The notes beneath the pieces were generated by a model, which was not told the DNA's origin, did not search any database, and saw nothing but the letters and a program-made list of their open reading frames with translations. Source: Mesodorylaimus sp. YZB2_4 (taxonomy: Eukaryota; Nematoda; Enoplea; Dorylaimida; Dorylaimidae). Taken from it: a stretch of DNA of 64,000 nucleotides. The stretch lies in the NCBI GenBank assembly GCA_030248295.1, contig JASANH010001188.1:281757-345756 (forward strand). The letters are read 5' to 3'. The position numbers and the translations under genes were made by a program. Shown here piece after piece: positions 13,396-64,000 of this stretch (its first letter is position 1; each line of letters begins with the position of its first letter).

Positions 13396-14190
13396 CGATT
13401 CAAAATTTGGTATGGACGAAATACAGATATTGGATGTGCAGCCTCCTATCCGAGGGTCACACCTTCTCGCACTCACTCGACTCGGGGTCTGTTGTCGGAC
13501 TGGAGGCGGGAGGGGATTCGACTACTCCTTGCAGACACGGCCCGACCAGTACAGAAAGAGTTGGCTGGCTTGTTATTCGAGTTGTAGGAACAAGTGCTAA
13601 ATTTTTCAAGAAACCGTCTTACACCTCGCCTTGGTCGTCTTAAGCGGATGGGCCGGGCTTATACGTGTGCAATGGCACGGTTTTATGCGCTTTTCAGTCC
13701 CCTGGCCTCCAAGCGTAAACAATGCCCCGGGCGGGAGTCTCGAAAAACGGAGACGGTTTACGTTGGGGCTATTAGCCACTTCCCAGACCCTGTTGCGCAG
13801 CTTTATCTGCCATACGGCCAGCACGCCCTGGTGCATTCCCTGGACTAGCCTAAGCTACCCAACCATTCGGACACCCATAGCAAATCGGAACATCTGTTTT
13901 AGGCACTATCTCGAAGTCTGCTGCACCGGTGGAGAGGGGCGGTGGCATGTAGCTGCTTTTTCCTTGCACCTTTGTTATCAGCCCAGGGATTTCCAATTTC
14001 TCCTGGCTATAGGACAAAATGCAGAACACTATGGCGATAAGAAAAGCACGCTTAAAGAGTTTTCACATGTTTTTCACCTAATCTTATTTTGTACCGCTTA
14101 TAAGTGCCAAGTCTACGCAAACTAACTGTGCACATATTGCTTTGTATCCTTTGAATACTCCTTTGGACATACTGTAGATTGGATTGGATT
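13396..14190. other. intergenic, upstream of the collagen gene
   Basis: This holds the presumed collagen promoter in its left part. Open frames of 76-164 codons occur on both strands from 13606 to 14125 but show no recognisable motif. A short GTTGCGCAGCTTTAT string near 13790 recurs near 19734, which suggests repeat content. Confidence 0.4.
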
Positions 14191-14194
14191 GTAC

Positions 14195-16130
14195 ATCCTG
14201 ACCAAACCTGCTCTGTACCAAAAAGGGACATCCGAGATGGTTTACTAACGCTCTACAACGCAGTGGAATATATAAAATAGAAGGAAATATCCGCCTTAAT
14301 TTTGTCACTTGGCCACATGTCAGCCTTTGACATAATCGAATGGGAATATGTATTCCGTGTTTCGGATTTTTTTGAATTGGGTCCTGTATTTCAGCAGTGG
14401 GTTCACCTTATCTGTAAAACGGCTTTAGTAACTTCATCAGTTCAGGTAAACGGTTGTGTGTCAGGGGCATTGTGCAGGGTTGCCCCCTGTCTGCATTGCG
14501 CTACGTGCTAGTGTCTGAAACGGTAACGAATTGCATAAGGAGGGACATGGCTGTGACTGGAATTGACTTGGTTGGGGAACATCTCAAATTGCGCAACTAT
14601 GCAGATGACACAAATTTTCTACTCTCTGATTGTGGTTTTCTAAAAGAAAGAGAAGGGATGGAGATAGCTGTAAACTGGGATGGTGTCCGAAACCACATAG
14701 GCACGCTAGGAAACATGACACCACACAATGACATGTCCTATTTCGGTGGGGTATACGTGCCTAATACTTATTTCTTGTCCAAACTTTGGTACTTAGCATC
14801 AGTGATTGCACCAAAAGATGATTTGCAACGGTTTGCTGAGACACATATGGATTCATATCTCAGGCATCCGGCCAAGCAGAATGTAATAAACAAGCGCATT
14901 TTGAAAAGGACCAAAGAGCAAGGAGGAGTGGGATACCCTGGCTTTAAAATTGAGCTAGCCAAAAAGAACCCAGACCATACAAGTGCAAGCCCTTATATCC
15001 AGAAGTTCACGCAGTCCTGTAAAGGCGTGGCTAATCCACTTCCAGTATGAATTGCACAGTGCACACGCGGAATAGACATGCCATCATGTGCGTGGCTAAA
15101 TGGTCATTGGCTACAAGGAAACTATTATGCTACCATGAATAGGCTATGACTAGGTAGTCCGTTACCTTATTTGCACAATGAGTATGCACGCGTGTGAATG
15201 AAATTTGCGTCTGCTTTACACTCCAGCCATGATTTCACAGGTTGCTCCATGGTTTTTTTGTCACGTACCAAAGTGTTTGAGTATTTGATTATGATTTTTC
15301 CAGGATGTAGATACTTTTTTGATTAAATGGTTATACGGAAAAAAAATGACTAATGAGCCCAGGATTTATGGCGCCGGCGATGTAGGCGGGAATGAAAACA
15401 TAAAAAAGCATAAACTAATCCTGACTAAAGGAAAAACAGGTGCTCACACAAAATGCGTCTGTTGCGTCTGGACTAAACCAAAACAAGTGCAATTGACAGT
15501 CGACACTCGAAAATCGAGCATACAACAAATGAAGCATGGAAAAAGCAAGCTTTTGTACAGACGCATGCTTGAGAAAATGGTGGGCAAGGCCACAATGGCG
15601 ATGGAGGAATATTGGAGGGAGAAATTTGGGAAAGGATCGATTGACTTTAGTGCATATTGGAGACTAAATACAACAAAGCACGTCGATGGTCTAACACAAA
15701 GCACACATTACTCCCTTCTGTACAAAGGATTGTATACAAGGAGCAGAGTGTCCAAGTTTACAGATGTTACTTCAAACTGTAAGTACTGGACAGAGCTGGC
15801 TGGCTAGGATAAATACGAAGACGTTTAATATGTTTTTGTCGAAAGTCACAAAGTTCAGGTTTTTTTGGGACAGGGTGAATGTATTTATTCAGGAAATTGA
15901 CCAGACCGTCACTCTGAACCATGAAAGCATGATTTTCGGAGTGACTGGCGGAAAATCCTCACATTTGAAGATGATTGTAAACTCGATTTTACAATCAGCG
16001 CAGGAATGCATTTGGTTTGCTAGAATGGATTGAGGAAAAGAACTCAGACACTGACCTTTGGGTTTCACTTTTAAAGCGAAACCGACTGTTGTTTAAAAGA
16101 GCTAGGTATTTTGTAGATATTTGTTGGGGT
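14195..16130 (+). pseudogene. decayed Tx1/L1-like LINE, ORF2 remnant
   Basis: The sequence follows the reverse transcriptase of the near-intact LINE at 37.85-43.1 kb, beginning at the palm motif before GRDIRDG and continuing through HMSAFDIIEWEY and NYADDTNFLLSD. It then passes the later domains (YFLSKLWYLASVIAP, AYWRLNTTKHVDGLT) to near the ORF2 C-terminus. It is broken by stop codons, frameshifts and deletions: one stop falls at about 14278, and sequence after the YADD box is missing. It lacks ORF1 and the endonuclease, as expected of a 5'-truncated insertion. Divergence from the 38-kb element is clearly higher than between the 17.4-kb and 45.6-kb copies, so it is an older or separate subfamily. 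Confidence 0.85.
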
Positions 16131-34423: not shown

Positions 34424-36792
34424 ATGTACGATTCGTTAATTGGCTTAATTGGCCAATTAATTTTACCTTTTCTTATTTTCGCCCTAATCTTTACTTTGTG
34501 CATGAGATATTACGAGAATCGTCGTCGTTGGTTGCATCGTGGCCAGTACGAACTAGCGGGCAAGTACGTGCTGATCACTGGCGCCAGCAGCGGACTGGGC
34601 AGCGCCTTGGCTGAACAATTCTACCTGGCCGGTGCCAAAGTGATTCTGGCAGCGCGAAGTTTGGATAAATTACATCAATTACGAGATTCGTTGAAGAATA
34701 TTTGCAAAAATGAATCCGCAATCATTAAATTATTAGAACCCGAAGTCATATATTTGGATTTGGCCAATGCTGAAACCATCGACAAAACTGTCGTGGACAT
34801 AATGCAAGTGGCTGGTGGGCGGCTAGACGTGCTGGTCAATAATGCTGGCATGAGCATGCGGGGCTCGTGCGCCGAGACATCGATGGACGTGCATCGACAA
34901 CTCATGCAAGTCAACTACTTCGGCCACATTCAACTCACACAGGCCATTCTGAAATTCATGTTGGAAACGGCAGGTACGTTCGTGGTTGTCCACTTGACGC
35001 TGAGAATGGGAGAAGGACTGAAGGATAGGCTGGCTAGCGAATCACTGTGATCGATACACTGATAAGGATAAGTTATCGATTGATAGTTCGTTGATAAGTT
35101 ATCGATTGATAATTCGTTGATAAGTTATCGATTGATAATTCGTTGATAAGTTATCGATTGATAATTCGTTGATAAGTTATCGATTGATAATTCGTTGATA
35201 AGTTATCGATTGATAATTCGTTGATAAGTTATCGATTGATAGTTCGCTGAGAAGTTATCGATTGATAATTCGTTGATAAGTTATCGATTGATAATTCTTT
35301 GATCACTTATGACAGCAGGCCTGGTCTGTCCTTGTCTAATCGTAAGATCCAAAAACTTAAAAGAAAATTTTACTGAGCCTGAGGCCTTTTATGCAAGAAA
35401 AATTATCGCGTGATGCATGCAAAAGTCCTACATAGTATTTAGTGTTTTAAATTTCGACTTTGTGGCTCTAAAATTTGAATTCCCGCCTGTTGAGTTATTT
35501 GAATCTTTTCTGAGGGATTTTTGAGGACATTGGTTAGTCGGGGGTCAGCAGGGAGATTTGTTAAGAAATTTTACAGGGTACTGGTCTCAGTCTTTGGTGA
35601 TCGGATGATGTTTCTGAGGAAACAAGAAACCAACTTCTCGACGAGGGCTTGAGCATGAAGTAATGGTGGGGTCGAGGAGCTGCGGTCAGGACGGTTTCTC
35701 AGACAAAGCTGAAATCGAATTAGGATGTGAAATCCATCCAATGGGCTAATGTATTGTAGCCTTTCCTGGATTCGACTTGAAAGTGCTCTTTTTTAAACAA
35801 ATTTACTGACTAGCGGCGCTTTCTTAAAATTTTACCTGCAAATCAGGATCAGGATCTACGTGATCAGATAATGCGTTGATCCTCTCACCATTTTATCGCA
35901 GACTGGGCGACTGTTGTCACTGTGTCGATAAATGTTTTATTGAAGAAATCTGTTTGTGATAATCTGAAACAGTAATAAGGTATCCTTATCCAAATTACAC
36001 ATGTTAGATTTACTCTGACTGATACTGCATTATGTTTCGATCATGAGACAATATTGCATTGATTTCAAATGATCTGTCATCAATTAATTTTGTGTGGATT
36101 TTGGGCAGTACGGTTCTCAATCAGTTTTCCATCTTTTAGTGTTTAACCAAACAATTGTGAAGAAGTGTATCACACTATCACTCTGACGCAGTACCCAATG
36201 TCTTATAAATATCCACGATCCCCGGCCTCGTGTGTTAGGCGTCTGCCTCTCACGCCAGGTGATGTGGTAAAACATGAACATGAACGACAGTTTGTTGTAT
36301 CATCATATCAACTGGCTCATGCCACTCATTCCCATTATAGCCACGAATCCCGCATCGTCCAGTCCGTGCATCATTTGCATCAGCAGCGTTCAAGGCCGAA
36401 TCACTCTTCCCTTCCGTAGCGCCTACGCGGCCAGCAAGCACGCTTTCCAAGCTTACTTTGACGCGCTTCGTGCCGAACTGGCTGCTCAGAAAAGGGAGAA
36501 AGGTCGAGTTCGAGTCCTGGTCGTGTCGCCTGGTTATATTCAGACAAACCTCTCCCTGAATGCATTAACGGGCGGTGGAGAGAAGTACGGCAAGATGGAC
36601 GAGACAATACAAGGCGGCATGACGGCCGAGGTGGCGGCCAGGTGCATTGTCGACGGGTTGTTGGACGGGAGGGAAGAGTTGGTGCTGGCGCCCATGGATG
36701 CCAAGTTGGGAATAGTCATACGCACACTGATGCCTAGTCTGTATTTCTGGCTAATGGCCAAACGAGCCATCAAAGGTCGAAAGACTGAGTAA
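34424..36792 (+). CDS. dhrs7b: DHRS7B-like short-chain dehydrogenase/reductase
   Basis: Two exons, 34424-34973 and 36341-36792, join in phase to 333 residues. The length is near that of vertebrate DHRS7B (325). An N-terminal membrane anchor (residues about 5-27, LIGQLILPFLIFALIFTLC) is followed by a Rossmann fold with the cofactor motif TGASSGLG (residues about 52-59), the NNAG motif (about 139), the catalytic Ser in ISSVQG, and Y-A-A-S-K (Tyr about 212, Lys about 216). The family is NADP(H)-dependent; human DHRS7B acts in peroxisomal/ER ether-lipid metabolism as an acyl/alkyl-DHAP reductase-type enzyme. That substrate is inferred, not visible. The ATG at 34424 is used because it directly precedes the anchor; the upstream frame has no ATG. 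The intron (34974-36340) carries a 26-bp tandem repeat and a SINE scrap. Confidence 0.92.
35069..35305. repeat. 26-bp tandem repeat in the DHRS7B-like intron
   Basis: About nine head-to-tail copies of a 26-bp unit containing AGTTATCGATTGATAATTCG. The central copies are identical and the outer ones carry single changes (ATAGTTCG, GCTGAGAAG). The unit includes TTATCGATTGATAA, a near-palindrome with two GATA/TATC cores. Confidence 0.95.
36218..36285 (+). repeat. internally deleted SINE scrap, copy 3
   Basis: Plus orientation. The tRNA-like head (GGCCTCGTGTGTTAGGCGTC then TGCCTCTCACGCCAGGTG) is joined straight to the far end of the tail (ATGTGGTAAAACATGAACATG). Compared with the full copies, the middle, including the B box, is missing. 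It lies 56 nt upstream of the acceptor of the second DHRS7B-like exon. Confidence 0.8.
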
Positions 36793-37586
36793 TGTGGAAT
36801 GAATGTGACTGCGCGTGGATTCTGGACTAGGGGGGAGGAAGGTCATCGGCAAAAGATAAGGTTATGATTTGAAGAGGGTTAGACTGTGATGGGCTGGTGA
36901 TAAGGAGATAGAATTGTGATAAGGGCCTTTAGTGATCAACTAATGACTTGTGCTGTGCAGTGATGATTTCTGTTTATACTTTTTGTACTGATGGAGGAAC
37001 GAGTAATAGATTTGATACTGGGTGTAAGACTTGTGAAAGTTCGCCGCAAACATTGCAAATATACGTGTAAATACTTGAAAATACTGCTGCCTATTCAGTT
37101 TCATTTCGGTGATGCCAATCGCTATCGAGCTTTATAGTCACAGTTTTACAGTAAAAAATGTAACTGAAAAAACTTGTAATTAGGGGGGGGGGGGCATTTT
37201 TATGACGCGTTTCGCACTGGTGTCTTTGCGGAGGCTTATGGTCCGCAAAGGCGAGATAAGTGCCCGGACAGAGTCCAAGTTTCCCTGTGGTCTCCATATT
37301 CTTGCTGTGTGCAGAATGATACCACATTGAAGCGACCACGGATTGTTTTTAGTGCATACTAAGGCGACCGCAGAAGAGCATAAGTGTGAATCCGGCTGAC
37401 GTGAGACACGCACGAAGATGTCTTCAGCGCGGTGCACTTTGTTCACCCTCGAGTGAACGACTACGTCACTCCTTCCACCTGTATACTCGAGACTGCAACC
37501 GAGATCTCGTTCTTGCATGAATTTCTACCATTTCTCTCTTCTGCCTGTTGCCAAAAGTTTACGTTCCCTCTTAACTTGTATACAAT
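36793..37586. other. intergenic
   Basis: The 3' end of the DHRS7B-like gene and the 5' flank of the small gene at 37587. It contains a G tract near 37184-37193. No other feature supported. Confidence 0.5.
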
Positions 37587-37849
37587 ATGGCCAAAAGCAC
37601 AACAGGACCCCGTCGTAAAAATACTTTCCAATCTTGCCATATTGGACTCTACATATTCACTTTGGTCTCGTGTGGACTTATTTTTGTGAGTCAAATTTGC
37701 ACTTCAAGAATTGGAGTTTAAAAATTTAATTGTTTTAGGTGCTTTGGTATAATCCAGATGCAATACCAGAAAAAACATTGATGACTATGATTAGACGCCG
37801 TCGAGGCAAGTCGGGTCTCAACTCTCTCTCCTGCGTGTGCAGAAACTAG
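37587..37849 (+). CDS. small single-pass membrane protein, two exons
   Basis: Exons 37587-37685 and 37739-37849 join in phase across a 53-nt intron with GTGAGT donor and TTGTTTTAG acceptor, giving 69 residues. The N-terminus is basic (MAKSTTGPRRKNTF), followed by one hydrophobic segment (about residues 20-36, GLYIFTLVSCGLIFVLWY). The C-terminal half carries a basic cluster (MIRRRRGK). The short basic-TM-basic layout resembles small subunits of membrane complexes, but I cannot name a family. The last dozen codons (after RRRRGK) run into sequence that may already belong to the LINE inserted behind it, so the native C-terminus could differ. Confidence 0.5.
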
Positions 37850-37995
37850 TTTTTTTACGTAATAGAGCGAAAGGACAACGGATAGAGATCTTGATATTGA
37901 TAAGATTATATCGAATCGATTACCTGATTTCACTTTACGGAATCCTCTGGAGGAGGAAGTATCGTGGTTCAAGGTATTTCACGGGAAGGAGAATA

Positions 37996-39507
37996 ATGGA
38001 GAATCAAGCTTCCAATACGATGGAAATCGAAAATGAGTTCATTTTGGAAAACACCACGTCTGTCAAGAGCGGGTTCGAGTTTGCCTACATCTCATTGCGG
38101 TCGAATGATCTGCTCGACAAGAGTGTAGAGGTGATTATGAAAGCCATCTCGGAAGAAAATCCAAAAGAAAGACATCCATTATTTGCTTGGCGCTTCGCTC
38201 GTGCAATTAAGCTGGCCTATCCAACAAAAGAATCACGTGACCTGGTCGTCAAGGAAAAATTGTCAATTTTCAATATTCGTGTCGATATTGAAATGCCAAA
38301 AGTGTTCACTCCCGAGGGGAGAAAAACCATTCATTTGTTTGGAATACCGATCGACATTGGACACACGGAAGTAGAAAAGTGGCTCAAAGATCACGGATTT
38401 CCAAGCAGGTCAGAAATGAGATGGATCACCTATCGTGGAACGGAAATTAGATCTGGTGCAAGATCAGTTATTGTGTCGTTGCCCCCTGAGAAGGAAATAC
38501 CTGGATACATCGACTTCAAGCCTCGTGATCAAAGAAAAGCATTCTCGGTCCAAGTATGGTATCACGGAATGCCCATTTGGTGCTGGCGATGTAAGAGCAA
38601 AGGCCACATGGCAAGGAATTGCTATCTTGCCGACTACCGACCAGAACCAGGCTCATATGCAGCGATGGCCAGCGGTGGTGGAGGATTTCGACAAGCTGCT
38701 GAATCAGGATCGATAGGACCGACTCCGACAACGAATATATCGAACAAGCCTAATGAGATCAGCAATGAAGAGTACCCCCCACTGACAACCTTGACCGCCA
38801 ATGCACCAGTCATCACTCGACCGAACCGAGAAACAGCTGCCACAGCAGTGGCAAGTGTTCAAGAAATTCTTCCTTTTTTTTCGAAAGAATCGCCTCTTTC
38901 GAATCACCATCCATGCGCCTTTACGATAGATGGCCAAAGCTTCACTTCAACTGAGCAATATCTGTATAAGGAAAGGGCGAAAGCAGTGGGTGACAAGGAA
39001 GACGAAATGAGGATCATGAACGCGGAATCAGCGGCTGAGACGAAAGCGATTGGCAAAAAGATCAAGTGGAACGAAAAGGATATGGGCAAGTGGATTGATT
39101 TCGCGAAGAAAAAATTGTATTTGGCAAACTTCAAAAAATTCGAATGCAATCCGGAATTAAGAAAATTCCTGTTTGAAACATCGCCTAAACTACTGGTGGA
39201 GGGCAATCCGAACGATAGTCGATGGGGTGTTGGCCTGAGCTGTGACGATCTGGAAATTTTTGATCAATCCAAATGGAAAGGGAAAAACGAATTTGGCAAG
39301 CTGCTGACGGAACTGCGAGACAAGATGATGAAATTGCCGCAGTTTGAAAAGGAAGTGCATGAAGTGATGGAGAAAAGAAAGCAAGCCGAAATGAGGAAAC
39401 GACAGCGTAGCAGCGACGGGGAATCGAGTGGAGAGGAGCAATCGGACACGCATCCAAAACGTAAGCAGAGCTGTAACAATGTCCTGGATGAGAGCTTGGC
39501 TTTTTGA
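37996..39507 (+). CDS. LINE ORF1 protein: zinc knuckle plus NADAR domain
   Basis: 503 residues from the ATG at 37996; the frame is open upstream but has no other ATG. Residues about 100-195 match the Tx1-type ORF1 core (RKTIHLFGIPIDIGHTEVE, VQVWYHGMPIWCWRC). A CX2CX4HX4C knuckle follows (Cys196, Cys199, His204, Cys209), then a Ser/Thr/Gly-rich spacer. Residues about 292-445 form a complete NADAR domain: FFSKESPLSNHHPC, the F-T-S-T-E-Q-Y core (Glu320), AAETKAIGKKI, KKLYLANFKKFECNPELR, LLVEGNPNDSRWGVG (Trp410) and a closing FGKLLTELRDKM. The tail is basic and Ser/Glu rich. NADAR proteins act on ADP-ribose-linked substrates, including ADP-ribosylated guanine in nucleic acid. A role in the element's nucleoprotein or in host evasion is inference. 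Confidence 0.9.
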   Translation: MENQASNTMEIENEFILENTTSVKSGFEFAYISLRSNDLLDKSVEVIMKAISEENPKERHPLFAWRFARAIKLAYPTKESRDLVVKEKLSIFNIRVDIEMPKVFTPEGRKTIHLFGIPIDIGHTEVEKWLKDHGFPSRSEMRWITYRGTEIRSGARSVIVSLPPEKEIPGYIDFKPRDQRKAFSVQVWYHGMPIWCWRCKSKGHMARNCYLADYRPEPGSYAAMASGGGGFRQAAESGSIGPTPTTNISNKPNEISNEEYPPLTTLTANAPVITRPNRETAATAVASVQEILPFFSKESPLSNHHPCAFTIDGQSFTSTEQYLYKERAKAVGDKEDEMRIMNAESAAETKAIGKKIKWNEKDMGKWIDFAKKKLYLANFKKFECNPELRKFLFETSPKLLVEGNPNDSRWGVGLSCDDLEIFDQSKWKGKNEFGKLLTELRDKMMKLPQFEKEVHEVMEKRKQAEMRKRQRSSDGESSGEEQSDTHPKRKQSCNNVLDESLAF

Positions 39508-39515
39508 AACTGTAA

Positions 39516-42500
39516 GATTGGGCTTCGGGCGGTGCTAGGTCTTGTTGGTCAATATTTCTTGATCTCATCATAGGTCCAAAAATATTTTTTGCAACTTACA
39601 ATACTGCTGGGCTGAGAAATAAGGTGCCAAAAATTCTCTCAGTTTTTGAATTTTTGAAAGTGTATGATGTAGTTTGTATGCAGGAGACGCATTTTCGAAG
39701 CCACTCTGAAGCGGCCTACTTTGACAGTGTTTTTGAAAGCAGATTTATGATTTTCCATAGTTTTTCACAAGAGTATTGTTCAGGGATATGTATGTTGGTC
39801 AGTAGGGCTTGTTTGTTCTCGGAAATAACTCGCATAACCAGTATTGAAGGTAGAGCAATAGCATTGAAGGTTCGATATGAGTCTAGGATTTTTCTTCTTT
39901 TTGGAGTATATGCGCCTGCTCAAGAGTCCCCTAGGAAAGCTTTCTTTGACCAGTTACTCGACAAGGCTTTAGAAAAGTTCCGGTACCACGATGCTGCCTT
40001 TTGCATGGGAGATTTCAACTTTGTCGAGTCCAAGGAGCTCGACCGAAGTGACCTCACGGTCTATCCAGAGGGCGGGCTAAAAGAGTTTTCTAAATTTTCA
40101 TCTAAATTTAAATTGCACGATATCTTCCGATATCATAATCCGAAGACAAAAGAATTCTCTCATCTTGCTCACAGTTCCAAAACTCAAGGGCGACTTGACA
40201 GAATTTATGGCACTGAAAACGCGGTTGAGTCGTACAGCAAGCATGAATTCATAGAAACAGGACTGTCTGATCATAAGATTTTTCAAATTTCTTTTATATT
40301 TAGCTTTGCGCAGATTAAAAGAGGACCTTCTTACTGGAAACTAGACGTAGAGTTTTTACAACGTGACGATGCTTTGAAGGAACAAGTCAAAAATAAGCTT
40401 TTGTTTTTGGAGGCCTACCTCCAAGGCGCATGCGATAGGGATGTGCTGAGTGCGTGGGATCAGTGCAAGTCTGAAATAGGACGGTTGTGCAGAGCATCTA
40501 AAACTCAGTTCGAGTCCTACGGAAGGAAAAGAAGAGCGGGTATAGCAAAGGACCTGGAGAGGGCTAAGGCACTGCTGGCACAGTATCCCAGGAGTGACGT
40601 GATGAAAGCTGAATACGAGGAAGTAAGGGAAAAACTAAGGAGTTTTGACCGCGAGGAAATCAGGAAGAGATTGACAAAAACGCACTATAAAGATTTGGCA
40701 ACAGACCAGTTCACGCTGGTAACAGCCAAACTAATGCAAAAGAATTCGGCTGAATTAAGAACAGTGTACGCGATTAAAGATGATAAGGGGATCGTGCATG
40801 ATAATCAACTGGAGGTGATAGCAGAAGTGAGAAGACAGTACGCATCGTTGTTCACAAGTGCAGGGACGATCAAGGAAAATGCGGCAAGAATGTTTTTAGA
40901 CCAACCTCCCTTCGGTACAGCCGACGAGGTAGACAGGGCTGCACTGGAGGGAGAGATAAGTGAAGACGAGGTAAAAAAAGCGGTTCTCTCCTTCAGCAAA
41001 AAGAAATCGCCAGGCAGTGACGGGCTGCCAATAGAATTCTATTTGACGTTCTTGGCTGAGCTAAGTGTCATTTTGACCAAAGTTTTTGCAGCTAGCTTGC
41101 GTCTAGGGGAGTTGCCAGGGAGCTTGTACTTTGGAATAATATCCCAGTTGTACAAAGGAGAAGGTGATAAAAAGCTTAGGTCCAATTGGAGGCCACTGAC
41201 CATGCTCAATGTGGACTACAAAATCCTGGCTAAGGTTTTAGTGATAAGGCTTAGGAACATAATGTGCAAGCTTGTGCACCCCGACCAAACGTGCTCAGTG
41301 CCAGGAAGGGACATAAGGGACGGAGTGCTTACTTTGTACAACGCAGTTGAGTATGTCAATGAGAAGGAAATGGGGGCCATGCTGTTGTCTGTCGATCACA
41401 TGTCGGCCTTCGACATCATCGAGTGGGAGTATATGCAACGTGTGCTAGAATGGTTCAGATTGGGCGAGGGGTTCCAGAAATGGATAGGAATAATTTACAA
41501 GGACGGCCTAGTTGCTTCTTCGGTTCAGGTGAACGGTTACATATCCACCAGCTTCCATCCTAGTAGAGGGGTCAGGCAAGGTTGCCCACTGTCCGCACTG
41601 CTATATGTACTGGTGTCGGAAACAGTGACCAATTATATCAGGAGGGACAAACTGGTCAAAGGACTGGACATCTTAGGACAAGAGCAAAAGATAAGTAACT
41701 ATGCGGATGATACGAATTTCTTGGTGTCTGATGAACATTCAGTAGGTCGTATCATGCACATCTATGAGCACTATAAAAGAGCCAGCGGGGCAACATTGAA
41801 AACAACCAAGACAAAGATTCTGTGTCTAGGAAAGAAAGAGCCTGACAGCGTAGGACCCGAGCTGAGGCCCTTTGTTGTAGACAAGGTAAAAGTCTACGGA
41901 TTTTTCATTGGAAAAGAGGGAATGGAAGTTGCGGATAATTGGACTGGGGTACGGGAGCACATCGCTTCATTAGGCACTAGGATAGCACATTCAGAAGTTT
42001 CCCTGTTTGGCAGGATTCATGTAGCAAATACATATTATCTTTCAAAGTTGTGGTATCTTGGATCAGTAATTGCACCTGGAACTGACTTACAAAAACTCAC
42101 AGAAAGAATGATTGACAATTATCTTTGGCATCCAGCCAAAGTCAACAAAATAAACAAACTAGTGCTGAAGAGGAGCAAAGACCTGGGCGGAATAGGCTAC
42201 CCGGACATAGGCTGGAAGATACTCGCTTTTAGGTTGATGTTACTACTTAGAAGAACCCTGGCGCAGCAGGAAGCCGTGTGGCACAGATCTTTCGACTACT
42301 TTTTCGAGCGAGTTAGGCATGCAAAGTTATGTCATGTAGGAGAAATAAAGACACCTCGTCTGTACAAAGATATAAGAAGGGCGGAGCTTACAGCGAACTT
42401 CAAGCTGCTTGACCAGCACAGCGTCGGGCTGGACACGAAAACATACCCGATAAAGCATGTCAAAACAAAGATGCTCTATAAACACCTGATGGAGAAGAAG

Positions 42501-43106
42501 ACAGGGAAGGCCACAGCTGCCATGCAAAGTTACTGGTGTGAAAAATTGAGTACAGCTAATCTGGACTTCAGGGCCTACTGGAGACTAAACACGAGCAAAC
42601 ATGTGGACGGTCTGACCAGGTCGATACACTACAGTCTCCTGTACAAGGCACTGTACACTCGGAGTAGGATCACCAACTTCGCAGATGTAGATGAGTCGTG
42701 CAAGTACTGTGAGACAGTAGCGGGCCAGAGTATCCGCGAGGACGGATACCATGTTTTCGTAGAGTGCCAAAGAGTGCTTGAGTTCTGGAAGAAAGTGGAA
42801 GGCCTTCTCCAAAGAATGGATCCTTCCATCAAGTTCAGAGATGAGAACAAGATCTTCGGTCTGGCGGGCATAAAAAGCAAATCTACTTTCGTGACAGCGA
42901 ACATAGTTTTGCAGTCAGTCCAGAGATGTGTTTGGTTCGCCAGAATGGATTTTGAGGAAAAAGGAAAACTGGTAGATTTATGGGAATCACTGAGGAAGAG
43001 ACTTTGGGTCTTGACAAAGAGGGCTCAATTCATTTTGGACAAGCATCGGTTTGAAGATACTTTTCTGAAGTCTTTTTTCATGCAAGAATTGAAAAATATG
43101 GAATAG
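39516..43106 (+). CDS. LINE ORF2 protein: endonuclease and reverse transcriptase
   Basis: The frame opens after a TAA at 39513 and runs unbroken to 43106 (1196 codons). The APE-type endonuclease begins at ATYNTAGLRNK and shows MQETHF, GDFNF and a SDH motif, so the catalytic Glu, Asp, Asn and His are in place. Reverse transcriptase motifs are KSPGSDGLPIEF, NWRPLTMLNVDYKIL, the Asp of SVDHMSAFD, RQGCPLSALLY, and NYADDTNFL near 41697-41723. A C-terminal zinc motif CKYC...GYHVFVEC (CX2C...HX4C) lies near 42699-42770. The protein nicks target DNA and primes reverse transcription there. No ATG occurs before 39678, which is inside the endonuclease, so the start is marked only as the opening of the frame. 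Confidence 0.9.
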   Translation, partial: DWASGGARSCWSIFLDLIIGPKIFFATYNTAGLRNKVPKILSVFEFLKVYDVVCMQETHFRSHSEAAYFDSVFESRFMIFHSFSQEYCSGICMLVSRACLFSEITRITSIEGRAIALKVRYESRIFLLFGVYAPAQESPRKAFFDQLLDKALEKFRYHDAAFCMGDFNFVESKELDRSDLTVYPEGGLKEFSKFSSKFKLHDIFRYHNPKTKEFSHLAHSSKTQGRLDRIYGTENAVESYSKHEFIETGLSDHKIFQISFIFSFAQIKRGPSYWKLDVEFLQRDDALKEQVKNKLLFLEAYLQGACDRDVLSAWDQCKSEIGRLCRASKTQFESYGRKRRAGIAKDLERAKALLAQYPRSDVMKAEYEEVREKLRSFDREEIRKRLTKTHYKDLATDQFTLVTAKLMQKNSAELRTVYAIKDDKGIVHDNQLEVIAEVRRQYASLFTSAGTIKENAARMFLDQPPFGTADEVDRAALEGEISEDEVKKAVLSFSKKKSPGSDGLPIEFYLTFLAELSVILTKVFAASLRLGELPGSLYFGIISQLYKGEGDKKLRSNWRPLTMLNVDYKILAKVLVIRLRNIMCKLVHPDQTCSVPGRDIRDGVLTLYNAVEYVNEKEMGAMLLSVDHMSAFDIIEWEYMQRVLEWFRLGEGFQKWIGIIYKDGLVASSVQVNGYISTSFHPSRGVRQGCPLSALLYVLVSETVTNYIRRDKLVKGLDILGQEQKISNYADDTNFLVSDEHSVGRIMHIYEHYKRASGATLKTTKTKILCLGKKEPDSVGPELRPFVVDKVKVYGFFIGKEGMEVADNWTGVREHIASLGTRIAHSEVSLFGRIHVANTYYLSKLWYLGSVIAPGTDLQKLTERMIDNYLWHPAKVNKINKLVLKRSKDLGGIGYPDIGWKILAFRLMLLLRRTLAQQEAVWHRSFDYFFERVRHAKLCHVGEIKTPRLYKDIRRAELTANFKLLDQHSVGLDTKTYPIKHVKTKMLYKHLMEKKTGKATAAMQSYWCEKLSTANLDFRAYWRLNTSKHVDGLTRSIHYSLLYKALYTRSRITNFADVDESCKYCETVAGQSIREDGYHVFVECQRVLEFWKKVEGLLQRMDPSIKFRDENKIFGLAGIKSKSTFVTANIVLQSVQRCVWFARMDFEEKGKLVDLWESLRKRLWVLTKRAQFILDKHRFEDTFLKSFFMQELKNME

Positions 43107-44039
43107 AATGTAAACAATAATAAGAATAAAAATATATATAAAAGATTCTTTGATCATTTAAGGACCAGTTTTTTCGTGTTCTTTGTGGGGACTAAAGGAT
43201 GCATTGCGATCTTCAGTATGTGTCTGATTTTGTACCGCGTTTACGTGCCAGTTAAGTAAAATATGCTAATTTAAAAAAAAAAAAAAAAAAGAAAAAACAT
43301 TGAACTATATTGGAAATAAATATAATCTGGTGTTTGGCGCCATGTAAGTCGAAGAAAGTTGATGGGAGACGCCTGTGCAGGATGTGAACAAGGGTCTCGC
43401 ATCGAACTTTTGGTTGGAATTTGTTGGTTGCTTTCTACTGATGAGATGGGGGACGCGTTTTCCAGTTAGCCGTGCCAACTTTATTCTGGCAGCGCCAGAC
43501 AAGAAATGATATGCCGCATATACTTCTGGTACTGAGGGGACTAAGAGAACTAAACTGCCGCACCAGCGCCTAAAATCATGACGGCTAGCAACACTATGTA
43601 CAGTGAATTAAATCCACTTCACTCAGATATTACTGAAAGAGTACTTTTGTAGAACTTGGTTTCTTTTGATTGCGCACGCGGGTGAAGCCTACTACGCCTC
43701 GACATTATGCCGTCAAAAGCAAATCAAAGGATCAGCAAAAGTAAAATGGATCGTGCAAACATTTCTTCTTGGACTCCCATCATTGCTACTATTACGGAAA
43801 CAGAAGCGTGGAGATTAGTTAGACAGGGCTCACTTGCGTCCTTTATAACGCCTTCTTTATTACTGCTTAGTCGTACTGTATTACTTGTATTTCAGATGAT
43901 GCGGCATTGATAACTGGGCGGGTATGTAGTGTTGACAACTTGCCTATAATCCAACGACTTGGAAAGCAAAAACAAAAGCTTTGTGCTGCCAATTGCTTAA
44001 CTCATCGATTAGTCAGCAAAAGAGCAATTTCAAGAAAAA
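43107..44039. other. intergenic with A tract
   Basis: The LINE tail, then an A run at about 43273-43290. Only short frames. The sequence TTTTGTACCGCGTTTACGTGCC near 43230 has a diverged relative near 14088, ahead of the older LINE copy. Confidence 0.4.
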
Positions 44040-44751
44040 GTTGATTCTGCAAGGAGAAAGGATGAATTTGAACCCGGTGAGCTCTGAATCTGGCTGACCG
44101 AGGAACAAATTCACTATTCGACCCCGCTTGAGTGCATGAACAATTGCATTGATCCTTGCCGCCGAGCATACGACTGGTCATGAACGAAGACAACATCACC
44201 AGAATTATGCTCAGGAGAGGACAAACGCTTTTGAACCTTTGAGGATCATGAAGACGTGCTGGCGGCGAAAAGATGAATTCGAACCCGGTGAGCTCTAAAT
44301 CTTGCTGACCGAGAAACAAATTCCCACCTCGCATTCGAGGGAGTGCTGGTCGCCCTGGTGAGTGTGGCTCTAGTCATGACCGAATCCCGCAGGACCAGAA
44401 ACACGCCCACTGGGGTGGCCAGCCTGCACGAATGTCGGGTTTCGAGGCCTCGATGCGTGAATGCGCAGCTTCGGTGACGACCAGACCCCGCCACCGAGCT
44501 GACATGCACGCAACGAGGTCCGAGCAGGGACTCGGTGTGCACTCGCCCCGGCCTAGAACTGGTGCAATATGACCACGTCCACACATTGCACTGGCCCCGA
44601 CCACGGCGCCCGCACCACAAACAGATGGGTCCGAGGACCGTGCGGAGTGTGGGTCTAGTCATGACTCGTCTCCCCACGACCAAACACACATCCCGAACGG
44701 GCCACGAGTGAGAGGAAAGATATTACTGTAGTGGGAGGACTGGTGAAGGCC

Positions 44752-44791
44752 GGTGCAGGCCAGTGCAGGCCAGTGCAGGCCAGTGCAGGCT
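44752..44791. repeat. 10-bp tandem repeat
   Basis: Four near-perfect copies of GGCCAGTGCA inside repeat copy B. The corresponding place in copy A holds a single unit (GGCCTGCACC), so this is a local expansion. Confidence 0.85.
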
Positions 44792-45052
44792 GTGATGACT
44801 GGACACAACACCAACAACCCGAACTGGCCCGACCAGCCGTCCCTAAGTCCGCTCGGCCGACCAGAACTCCAGGCCTGTGCCGAATGTGCAACGAACCAAG
44901 TCCACGATGCACGTCCGACACGACCACAGTTCCGACCAGAGCCACCCCACACCCAAGTGAGCAGCCGGTCCCAGACTGACCAAGGCACAAAGTCAGCCAA
45001 GGAGCCTGCAGAAGGAAGGAAAGTTGGAATGACGGCCACTCGGATCCCCTCC

Positions 45053-45060
45053 CTTATATA
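45053..45060 (-). promoter_or_regulatory. TATA-like box in repeat copy B
   Basis: TATATAAG on the minus strand, the counterpart of 16317-16324, with the same flanks (CC before, GGAGGGGATC after). Confidence 0.5.
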
Positions 45061-45145
45061 GGCTGCGGCGGCACCCTGCTTAGAGGAGGTCAAGGCCGAC
45101 TGGCCAGCGGCGTCTTTGTCCTCTTTGTCCCCATTGACGTCGTCA

Positions 45146-45359
45146 CAATTTTCGACGCAGGGCCAGTTCTGTTCTTCAGGCCATCTTGCTGTATCATCAT
45201 TTCTTTACCTTCATAAACCACTTTTAGCAATTTTGCAGATGGCACTAAATTGAAGCGAAATGACCTTAGATTGGCAGCAGCAAGAGGCAGGGGCTAGGGA
45301 AGGAGTTGCTGCATTTTGTGCAATAAACTAAATATATTTTCATGATTAAACTACCAACA
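45146..45359. other. spacer
   Basis: Short spacer between repeat copy B and the next LINE copy. Nothing recognised. Confidence 0.4.
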
Positions 45360-46600
45360 CACCTAACTGGGCAGCTGCAAGAGACGAGATAGGAACATTG
45401 AATAGTAGTAGTCCCCACAGTGAGATATCATATTTTGGGAGAGTCCATGTCCTAAGCACCTATTTTCTGTCCAAAGTGTGGTACTTAGCATCGATTGTTG
45501 CGCCGGATGCTGATTTCCAGAGATATGTTGAGAAACATATGGATGCATATTTCTGGCATCCTTCTAAATCGAACATGGTGAATAAATTGATTTCGAAACG
45601 AGGCAGAGACCTCGGAGGTGTTAACTATCCAGACGTGAATACCAAGGTGCTAGCTTTCAGATTGATGCTTCTTCTACGTAGGCTGACTGCACAGCAGGAT
45701 GCTGCGTGGGGTGCGTGCTTTGATTTTTTCTATGGGAGAGTGCGATATGCGAACCTGAACCAATTGGACAGCATAATGGTGCCTCAGCTGTACAGGGATA
45801 TACGCAGGCTGTGAAGACAGCCAAATTCAGCTTATCGGATCAAGGCACTGTTGGATTGGATACAAGAACATATCCGATTAAACACGTCAAGACCAAGCTG
45901 CTGTATGAGCACATGATGGAAAGAAGGCGGGGAAAGCTACGCTAGCAATGCAGGAGTATTGGGAGGGGAAGCTAGGAAACGAGCATATCGACTTTAAGGC
46001 ATACTGGAGGCTCAATAGGACCAAGCACGTCGATGGCCATACGCGAAGTATACACTACGCTCTACTGTATAAGGCACTGTACACAAGAAGCAAAGTCTCG
46101 CATTTTGCATCTGAGGTTGATTCACACTGCAAGTACTGTAAGAAGCAGGGAACAGATGAGCACGAGGGTGTGTACCACGTTTTCGTCCAGTGCCCGAGGA
46201 CACGCGAATTCTGGGAAAAAGTGGAGTGTCTGTCGAAGAAAGTTGACCCATCACTAATTCTAAGGGAGGAGAATAAGATTTTTGGTATCACCGGCCTACA
46301 TCGCAAGCATATCGCCTGCTTTGCAAACATGGTTTTGCAGTCAGCACAGCGGTGCATATGGTATGCGAGGGCTGACTTTGAGGATGAAGACAAGATAGTG
46401 GACTTGTGGGATGCACTGCGGAGGAGGATGACAGTTTTGACTAAACGAGCCAGGTGCATTCTGTCACCGCGCATGTTCCAGGATTATTTTGCAGAGCCGT
46501 CTCTCGTGGAGTTGTTAGATTAGGGCTTTGAGGAAATTAACGAAACACAATAAAAAATAAAATAAAATAACAAAATTTAAAAAAAATTGAAAAGAAAAAG
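45360..46600 (+). pseudogene. 5'-truncated LINE ORF2 copy
   Basis: Covers the C-terminal third of ORF2. It begins near EISYFGRVHV, runs through WYLASIVAPDADFQ and NYPDVNTKVLAF to a stop at about 45812, then resumes in other frames (LDTRTYPI, AYWRLNRTKHVDGH). It ends with the zinc motif CKYC...YHVFVQC and a final stop at 46521. Two frameshifts, near 45815 and 45925, break it. The 3' end is an A-rich tail, AATAAAAAATAAAATAAAATAAC. The sequence is close to the fragment at 17435 and more distant from the intact element, so it represents another subfamily. Confidence 0.88.
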
Positions 46601-47617
46601 AAAAATTCAAAAAATTGATCAAATGGATAAAGCTTATATATGGTTTCTCTTTCTTTTGTGTGTGTACCACATTACTGTTTCATTGGTGATGCTGTGTGAG
46701 ATTAGGGCCATGAGCCGGTGCCAGGTTCAGCTGCTAACATGACTAACAAGGGAAGGAGAAAAGAATTAAGATAAAAGATCAAAGATCAATAAGACCAATA
46801 ATCAAATGTATCTTTTTGGAATGCTATAACGCCGTGCATTGTTATAGTAAAACTATTACAAAAAAACACCTACAGTATCTCCTCGAAATTCCCCCCCCCC
46901 CTCCCCGGAAATTCTCCCCCGGGGACGAATCTGAATTACCGCACAAAATCATCAGATTTGGAAAATGTGAAGGATATGAGTGTATGAGTGTGACTTGCAA
47001 AGATTCATCGGAAGGGAAATGCAGTTACCTTTGCCAGCCAGCAAAAGTCAATCAGGCGAATGAACTAGTGTTAAAAGGGACAAATGAACAGGGAGGACTG
47101 GGCCACTCCGAAGCTTGTGGTGCAGTCTGCACAAGCAGGCATCTGGCTGGCCCTACGCGAGAGCTGCGAGGACGGGGACACATAAACTGTAGAAAGGGAC
47201 ATTCGGGCCACACAACTGAGACGACTTCGATTCCTCAGCAAACGAGCTAAAATGACCCAACCAACTGGCGAAAAAAGCTTGCTTCCTAAACATTGTTGGA
47301 AATGGAAATAGAAATATTAAAACCTCGATTCGTTTTCTGGCACAGCAGTTGTTGCTAACCATGTAGAATCCTAGGAGCCCCCCCCCCCCCCATGACACCT
47401 AGCTTAGACACTGTCACTCTCCAAAATTCCGATATAAGCTAGTCTGATTGTGATCGCGTGTTCTGCCATCTGGACGAAAATTGAGTGTATTGCAGAGTGT
47501 AAAGTACACCAACGCCCCTTCTCGCATTCTGCTCATCAGGCATCCCAACGCGCTTCACCATCGGCCGGGCCGCGCTTGCTCGAGATTGCGTCGCTCTTCG
47601 ACTGAAAGCTTTGAAGA
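46601..47617. other. intergenic with a LINE scrap
   Basis: Near 47030-47105 a short piece (CQPAKVNQANELVLKG in translation) resembles the WHPAKVNKINKLVLKRS part of ORF2. C tracts occur near 46892-46901 and 47379-47389. No gene supported. Confidence 0.55.
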
Positions 47618-63854: not shown

Positions 63855-64000
63855 CGAATATATCGAACAAGCCTAATGAGATCAGCAATGAAGAGTACCC
63901 CCCACTGACAACCTTGACCGCCAATGCACCAGTCATCACTCGACCGAACCGAGAAACAGCTGCCACAGCAGTGGCAAGTGTTCAAGAAATTCTTCCTTTT
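63855..64000 (+). mobile_element. second copy of the NADAR-bearing LINE, 5'-truncated, cut by window end
   Basis: Base-for-base identical to 38732-38877 over all 146 nt up to the window edge, beginning within the ORF1 spacer at CGAATATATCGAAC. The sequence before 63855 is unrelated, so this is an insertion truncated inside ORF1. It continues beyond the window and would include the start of the NADAR domain. Confidence 0.92.

Follow-up and report, generated by a model that had tools for sequence, protein, structure and literature searches.

The 64,000-nucleotide stretch of the genome of the nematode Mesodorylaimus sp. YZB2_4 analysed here (contig JASANH010001188.1, positions 281,757 to 345,756 of the forward strand; hereafter the window) contains a complete long interspersed nuclear element (LINE), and the protein of its first open reading frame (ORF1) is fused to a genuine NADAR domain, a fusion that recurs in many copies and families of the element and is under strong constraint. 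A reading made from the letters of the window only (the sequence-only reading) had claimed a single uninterrupted ORF1 frame joining a CCHC zinc knuckle, Cys196 to Cys209, to a full NADAR domain, and each part of this was borne out (Table 1): the frame is open throughout, the knuckle was found at its place with the spacing C196-x2-C199-x4-H204-x4-C209, and the Pfam NADAR profile (PF08719) matched residues 297-444 with 105.1 bits (cut-off 35.1; E 5.9e-30), so that the lack of a profile match, an outcome the reading had named as fatal to it, did not occur. The zf-CCHC profile was not listed for the window copy in the Pfam search at E 0.01, and in the C51 copy it scored 28.7 bits (cut-off 20.8). 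The NADAR domain was modelled alone because the model of the whole ORF1 protein had low confidence at residues 402-409; a YbiA-like alpha+beta fold was backed both by this structure model, in which the NADAR fold is predicted with high confidence, and by structure comparison. On the basis of profile, fold and catalytic glutamate, the domain belongs to the NADAR superfamily and, within it, to the YbiA subfamily.

Constraint was assessed region by region in the 10 pairs formed by five families whose ORF1 frame is open, as identity and as the proportion of nonsynonymous differences (pN), with no dN/dS given because synonymous sites were saturated between families. No other part of ORF1 is as constrained as the NADAR domain, which was 60% identical between families with a pN of 0.248; the two predicted RRM folds were 48% (0.338) and 45% (0.367) identical, the knuckle 48% (0.341), the linker 36% (0.469) and the C-terminal tail 32% (0.462). 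The pN of NADAR was below that of the RRM folds in all 10 pairs, which share families and are non-independent, and none of 10000 column permutations was as extreme as the observed NADAR versus RRM contrast. Conservation of the domain is about equal to that of the endonuclease encoded by the second open reading frame (ORF2), i.e., measured against the window's family, the four other families were 60-64% identical in the endonuclease and 58-63% in NADAR. E320 and E402, which correspond to E43 and E125 of the Phytophthora nicotianae NADAR (8bau), are within the 16 invariant columns of 12 aligned proteins, a set that did not contain the C681 copy.

Other LINE copies with the same fusion, which the sequence-only reading had proposed to look for, proved to be numerous. 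The genome-wide profile search, which went exon by exon and took its scores from the best candidates, gave 75 NADAR matches, a figure that is neither the number of genes nor a full count, and 32 of these sit directly downstream of an ORF1 N-terminal part. At least seven ORF1 families are present in the genome, most with about 42-53% ORF1 identity to that of the window, and five of these NADAR-bearing families have at least one open ORF1 frame. Four proteins from public assemblies (P0002, P0003, P0006 and P0007; P0002 is incomplete) have the same layout as the window ORF1, and P0008, a 214-aa protein, consists of NADAR only. The ORF1 N-terminal part was found at 39 loci, 34 of which reach the knuckle; a NADAR match follows on the same strand at 26 of the 34, NADAR remnants were present at two more (C208 and C91), and at a further two (C946 and C313) the contig ends before NADAR could be read. 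At the other four (C250, C336, C199:142765 and C257:76457) there was no NADAR downstream, nor any same-strand ORF2 in the stretch read. The C250, C946 and C313 copies, in which the match stops at residue 290-298, had been candidates for copies lacking the domain and were rejected, the latter two because their contigs end there and C250 because it runs into unrelated tandem repeats. Also rejected as NADAR-less elements were seven hand-picked endonuclease loci with no nearby NADAR, taken from 135 matches; their ORF2 match starts only at residue 12-62 and nothing in them truly matches ORF1, so that they appear to be 5'-truncated. Full-length copies without NADAR, another outcome that would have spoken for a one-off capture, were not seen among the copies examined. 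A run of eight T lies at the start of the NADAR coding region (38873-38880), and the contigs C110, C946 and C313 end at or near it (window positions 63855-64000 belong to the same observation).

The sequence-only reading knew of no LINE family described this way, a point that the literature corrects: in Crassostrea gigas, several families of Tx1 LINEs have ORF1s that appear to hold a YbiA-family NADAR (PMC12477816), and the authors of that paper suggest that the domain processes RNA intermediates. A NADAR in a LINE ORF1 was therefore known already, in one sentence based on Repbase; the oyster elements have a YbiA-type NADAR inside ORF1, as does the window LINE, whose ORF1 core the sequence-only reading had called Tx1-type. 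The same paper reports a conserved NADAR in Gypsy elements of Ectocarpus, which are likewise retrotransposons but of the long terminal repeat kind, with blastp matches that were nearly all bacterial. Apart from PMC12477816, no report of NADAR in transposable elements was found among the papers listed by a search outside of which lay most subscription papers, Repbase and preprints. New here are the layout of two RRM folds, CCHC knuckle and NADAR in at least seven families of another genome with relatives in other datasets, the rank of NADAR as ORF1's most constrained region, a map showing which active-site residues are retained and which replaced, and another type of ORF1-like protein with NADAR. 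This second type, P0004 (405 aa), has an N-terminal coiled coil and a C-terminal NADAR (E 1.5e-42). It resembles the window protein in bearing NADAR at the C-terminus of what looks like a LINE ORF1, but lacks the tandem-RRM/CCHC part, and its likeness to L1-type ORF1 is by eye only, neither Pfam nor PDB giving a match to L1 ORF1.

In a tree of 26 NADAR domains, the 12 LINE-type rows were on one side of a branch with support 100/98. The other rows included three of 66 plasmid records (20 listed), three of 599 phage records (15 listed), five of six IMG/VR loci and one of several host genes, and the prokaryote genome collection lay outside the sampling. The nearest outside relative of the LINE-type clade falls in an open fork in which the host NADAR also sits, and thus the tree, for what these sequences can tell, speaks neither for nor against a host NADAR as the sister of the clade. 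The NADAR of P0004 was outside the clade, with a joint clade not rejected (approximately unbiased test, p 0.29), and P0004 is possibly a second, independent capture of NADAR by LINEs.

As to function, we give an even chance to the proposal that the ORF1 NADAR cuts ADP-ribose off guanines of the element's RNA or nascent complementary DNA (cDNA). ORF1 would coat the element RNA through its two predicted RRM folds and the zinc knuckle and act as a tether holding NADAR on the RNA, where the domain would take ADP-ribose from guanines in RNA or cDNA, leaving the template readable and reverse transcription unblocked; the marks may be the work of a host defence enzyme or may arise through ADP-ribosylation by accident. 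Inferred here are catalytic activity of the domain, guanine-linked ADP-ribose on nucleic acid as its substrate, and a readable template as the benefit. NADARs remove ADP-ribose from guanine in DNA (PMC11543638) and, as reported, no other family can do so on guanosine in RNA (PMC11833690), whose authors consider that the higher rate of one NADAR is possibly due to nucleic-acid binding. Those of nidoviruses and other invertebrate plus-strand RNA viruses were proposed to counter host ADP-ribosylation (PMC9503650); these too have a selfish RNA-copying carrier, but are in polyproteins with an RNA-dependent RNA polymerase rather than in a LINE ORF1. Unlike in DarT-NADAR toxin-antitoxin systems, the window ORF1 adjoins ORF2 and has no DarT partner.

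With active-site residues numbered after PMC11543638 (8bau positions), E43, K50, K75, G78, W89, E125, D130 and W133 were near-universal in the LINE-type rows: E43 was kept in 12 of 12, K50 in 11 of 12, and E125 in 11 of 12 (E402 in the window), with G in the frameshifted C681 copy, and K75 was R in P0002. Judged from the alignment, a hydrolytic set of the YbiA kind is present, and the side of the pocket facing pyrophosphate and adenosine is altered. The 8bau protein and E. coli YbiA (2b3w) share with the LINE domain its fold, the E43/K50/E125 set and the YbiA-type glutamate but are free-standing, with R at position 79 in both and R or K at position 93. The sequence-only reading had named loss of active-site residues as a further check on itself, and here the outcome was divided, with the catalytic set kept, K50 replaced in the window's own family and the ligand contacts changed.

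Several observations weigh against the removal of ADP-ribose from the element's guanines. K50 is R in the family of the window, and the equivalent change in the E. coli C7 NADAR, K95R, left hydrolysis in vitro and gave no rescue from DarT1 (PMC11543638). Two residues that touch the pyrophosphate of ADP-ribose in 8bau, R79 and R93, have given way to others, the former to E, K, G or D across the 12 LINE-type rows and the latter to A in all 12, and Y84 and D86 are not retained. At position 93, E. coli YbiA has K and four phage or viral rows have A, and position 79 is K in some non-LINE rows, with E confined to LINE-type rows; from these replacements it follows that the pocket may differ in substrate. 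Conservation itself is silent on the substrate for which selection acts, and in the C6 copy, whose eight-T run is one T short, the ORF1 frame shifts by one base where NADAR begins. A fitting host enzyme to write the marks was also elusive. The DarT profile had no matches in the genome (the control matched in 1 of 14), and Scabin-like and ART profiles likewise had none, with control genomes equally silent, so that absence is not established. PARP gave 10 exon-level matches and KptA/TRPT1 one, but TRPT1 puts its modification on phosphate ends, where NADARs are reportedly inactive (PMC11833690).

The replaced residues bear on other explanations as well. That the domain acts on small molecules derived from ADP-ribose or NAD, e.g., defence signals, by-products of RNA processing or riboflavin intermediates, with the ORF1 fusion serving co-expression only, we regard as unlikely: many viral NADARs were proposed to prefer soluble ADP-ribose derivatives (PMC9503650), NADAR enzymes do act on riboflavin intermediates (PMC9503650, PMC11543638) and the changed R79 and R93 contacts fit a different ligand, yet the NADARs of animal RNA viruses were argued to target macromolecular adducts (PMC9503650), and in the open ORF1 frames NADAR shares a chain with predicted RNA-binding units that a soluble substrate would not need. 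That the domain has lost most or all of its catalysis and become a structural module, or one that binds RNA, ADP-ribose or a host protein, is quite unlikely in our estimation. Such a change would account for the loss of R79 and R93 in every LINE-type row, the R at position 50 in the window's family and the G at position 125 in C681, but the latter is a frameshifted copy, the K95R protein retained hydrolysis in vitro, and invariance of E320 and E402 in the 12 aligned proteins (C681 outside the set) is not needed for binding alone.

Protection of the host, in which NADAR would limit damage to NAD or RNA metabolism and the element would thus be tolerated, would suit a genome whose several cellular NADAR genes suggest that the host probably uses NADAR chemistry; those genes, however, already give the host NADARs of its own, and the fusion to an ORF1 predicted to bind RNA speaks for an action on the particle of the element, making this very unlikely. 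That the domain was captured passively, once and without selection, or is an artefact of the assembly, is scarcely credible and already contradicted by the presence of NADAR in diverged families. The four knuckle-reaching pieces without NADAR and the breaking of several contigs at or near the eight-T run could be taken to favour it, but those pieces have no same-strand ORF2 in the stretch read, and against it stand the sharing of the domain by at least seven families, five with open ORF1, its constraint, and the relatives known from other datasets.

Were guanine-directed removal by the ORF1 NADAR correct, transposable elements would, as some viruses do, protect themselves against an ADP-ribose mark. 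Nucleic-acid ADP-ribosylation is reversible and established in bacteria, with its role in animals and that of eukaryotic NADARs open (PMC11125620), and the keeping of NADAR through at least seven families suggests that such a mark, or a related compound, matters in retrotransposition. A wider and rather doubtful extension is that animals ADP-ribosylate the guanines of retrotransposon RNA or cDNA and that a LINE lineage replied with an eraser in its RNA-packaging protein, an arms race.

Table 1. Features of the LINE in the window, and the ORF1 families of the genome
Feature	Positions	Strand	Basis or remark
Left target-site duplication (TSD) copy, 14 bp, AGAAAAAACATTGA	37768-37781	.	same as 43290-43303; no third occurrence in window
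Complete LINE, 5508 bp	37782-43289	+	TSD, poly-A, 5' end common to C250, C6, C313 and C111 copies
ORF1, 503 aa	37996-39507	+	open frame; 100% identical protein at C171
Predicted RRM fold 1, residues 23-103	38062-38304	+	
Predicted RRM fold 2, residues 108-192	38317-38571	+	
CCHC zinc knuckle, C196, C199, H204, C209	38581-38622	+	sequence; Pfam zf-CCHC over cut-off in C51 copy
NADAR domain, residues 292-447	38869-39336	+	
ORF1 C-terminal tail, predicted helix then Lys/Arg/Ser-rich	39337-39504	+	
ORF2 open frame, 1196 codons	39516-43106	+	no ATG before endonuclease; match to LINE-1 ORF2p structures
AP-type endonuclease domain	39591-40274	+	Pfam Exo_endo_phos, E 7.2e-11
Reverse transcriptase domain, YADD at residue 729	41172-41900	+	Pfam RVT_1, E 9.7e-27
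3' untranslated region and poly-A tail	43107-43289	+	
Right TSD copy	43290-43303	.	identical to 37768-37781
ORF1 family			window/C171/C6
ORF1 family			C37/C352/C118/C31/C72/C550
ORF1 family			C154/C90
ORF1 family			C509/C1066/C56
ORF1 family			C51/C120
ORF1 family			C267/C132/C97
ORF1 family			C681/C257/C406

The element has the features of an APE-type LINE, i.e., AP endonuclease and reverse transcriptase are both in ORF2, and the insertion has a 14-bp TSD, a poly-A and no long flanking repeats; self-comparison of 35001-47000 found no direct repeats around it. The sequence common to other copies of the LINE starts at 37788-37790, and ORF2 residues 26-898 match LINE-1 ORF2p structures (E 1.1e-68). 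That ORF2 follows 8 nt after ORF1 held for the frame, which opens at 39516 after the ORF1 stop at 39505-39507, but not for a start codon: its first Met codon, at 39678, is already inside the endonuclease. The lack of an early ATG in 39516-39678 suggests an unusual initiation of ORF2. In the stretch read, the ORF2 frames of the C37, C154, C51 and C509 copies are likewise without an ATG before the endonuclease. Diverged fragments akin to the element's ORF2 and to other repeats lie at 14189-14630, 15546-15788 and 45413-46426 of the window.

Elsewhere in the genome, further NADAR genes at six loci (L042, L043, L046, L048, L049 and L050) are cellular-looking and intron-split, some with at least two NADAR copies per gene. 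A multi-copy NADAR piece in frames of 97-100 aa occurs at L044, L045, C929, C765, C491, C936, C134 and C444, and in the first two it is followed by a short G-D-S-x-x-R-N stretch that is SGNH-hydrolase-like by eye, with no Pfam match. The exact nematode SL1 sequence had no match in the genome. Fifteen cox1 matches on several contigs all have stops in the standard code, the best of them (L009, on a 488-kb contig) having no stops under table 5 (the invertebrate mitochondrial code), the only animal code tried, and from their sequences these are likely nuclear copies of mitochondrial DNA.
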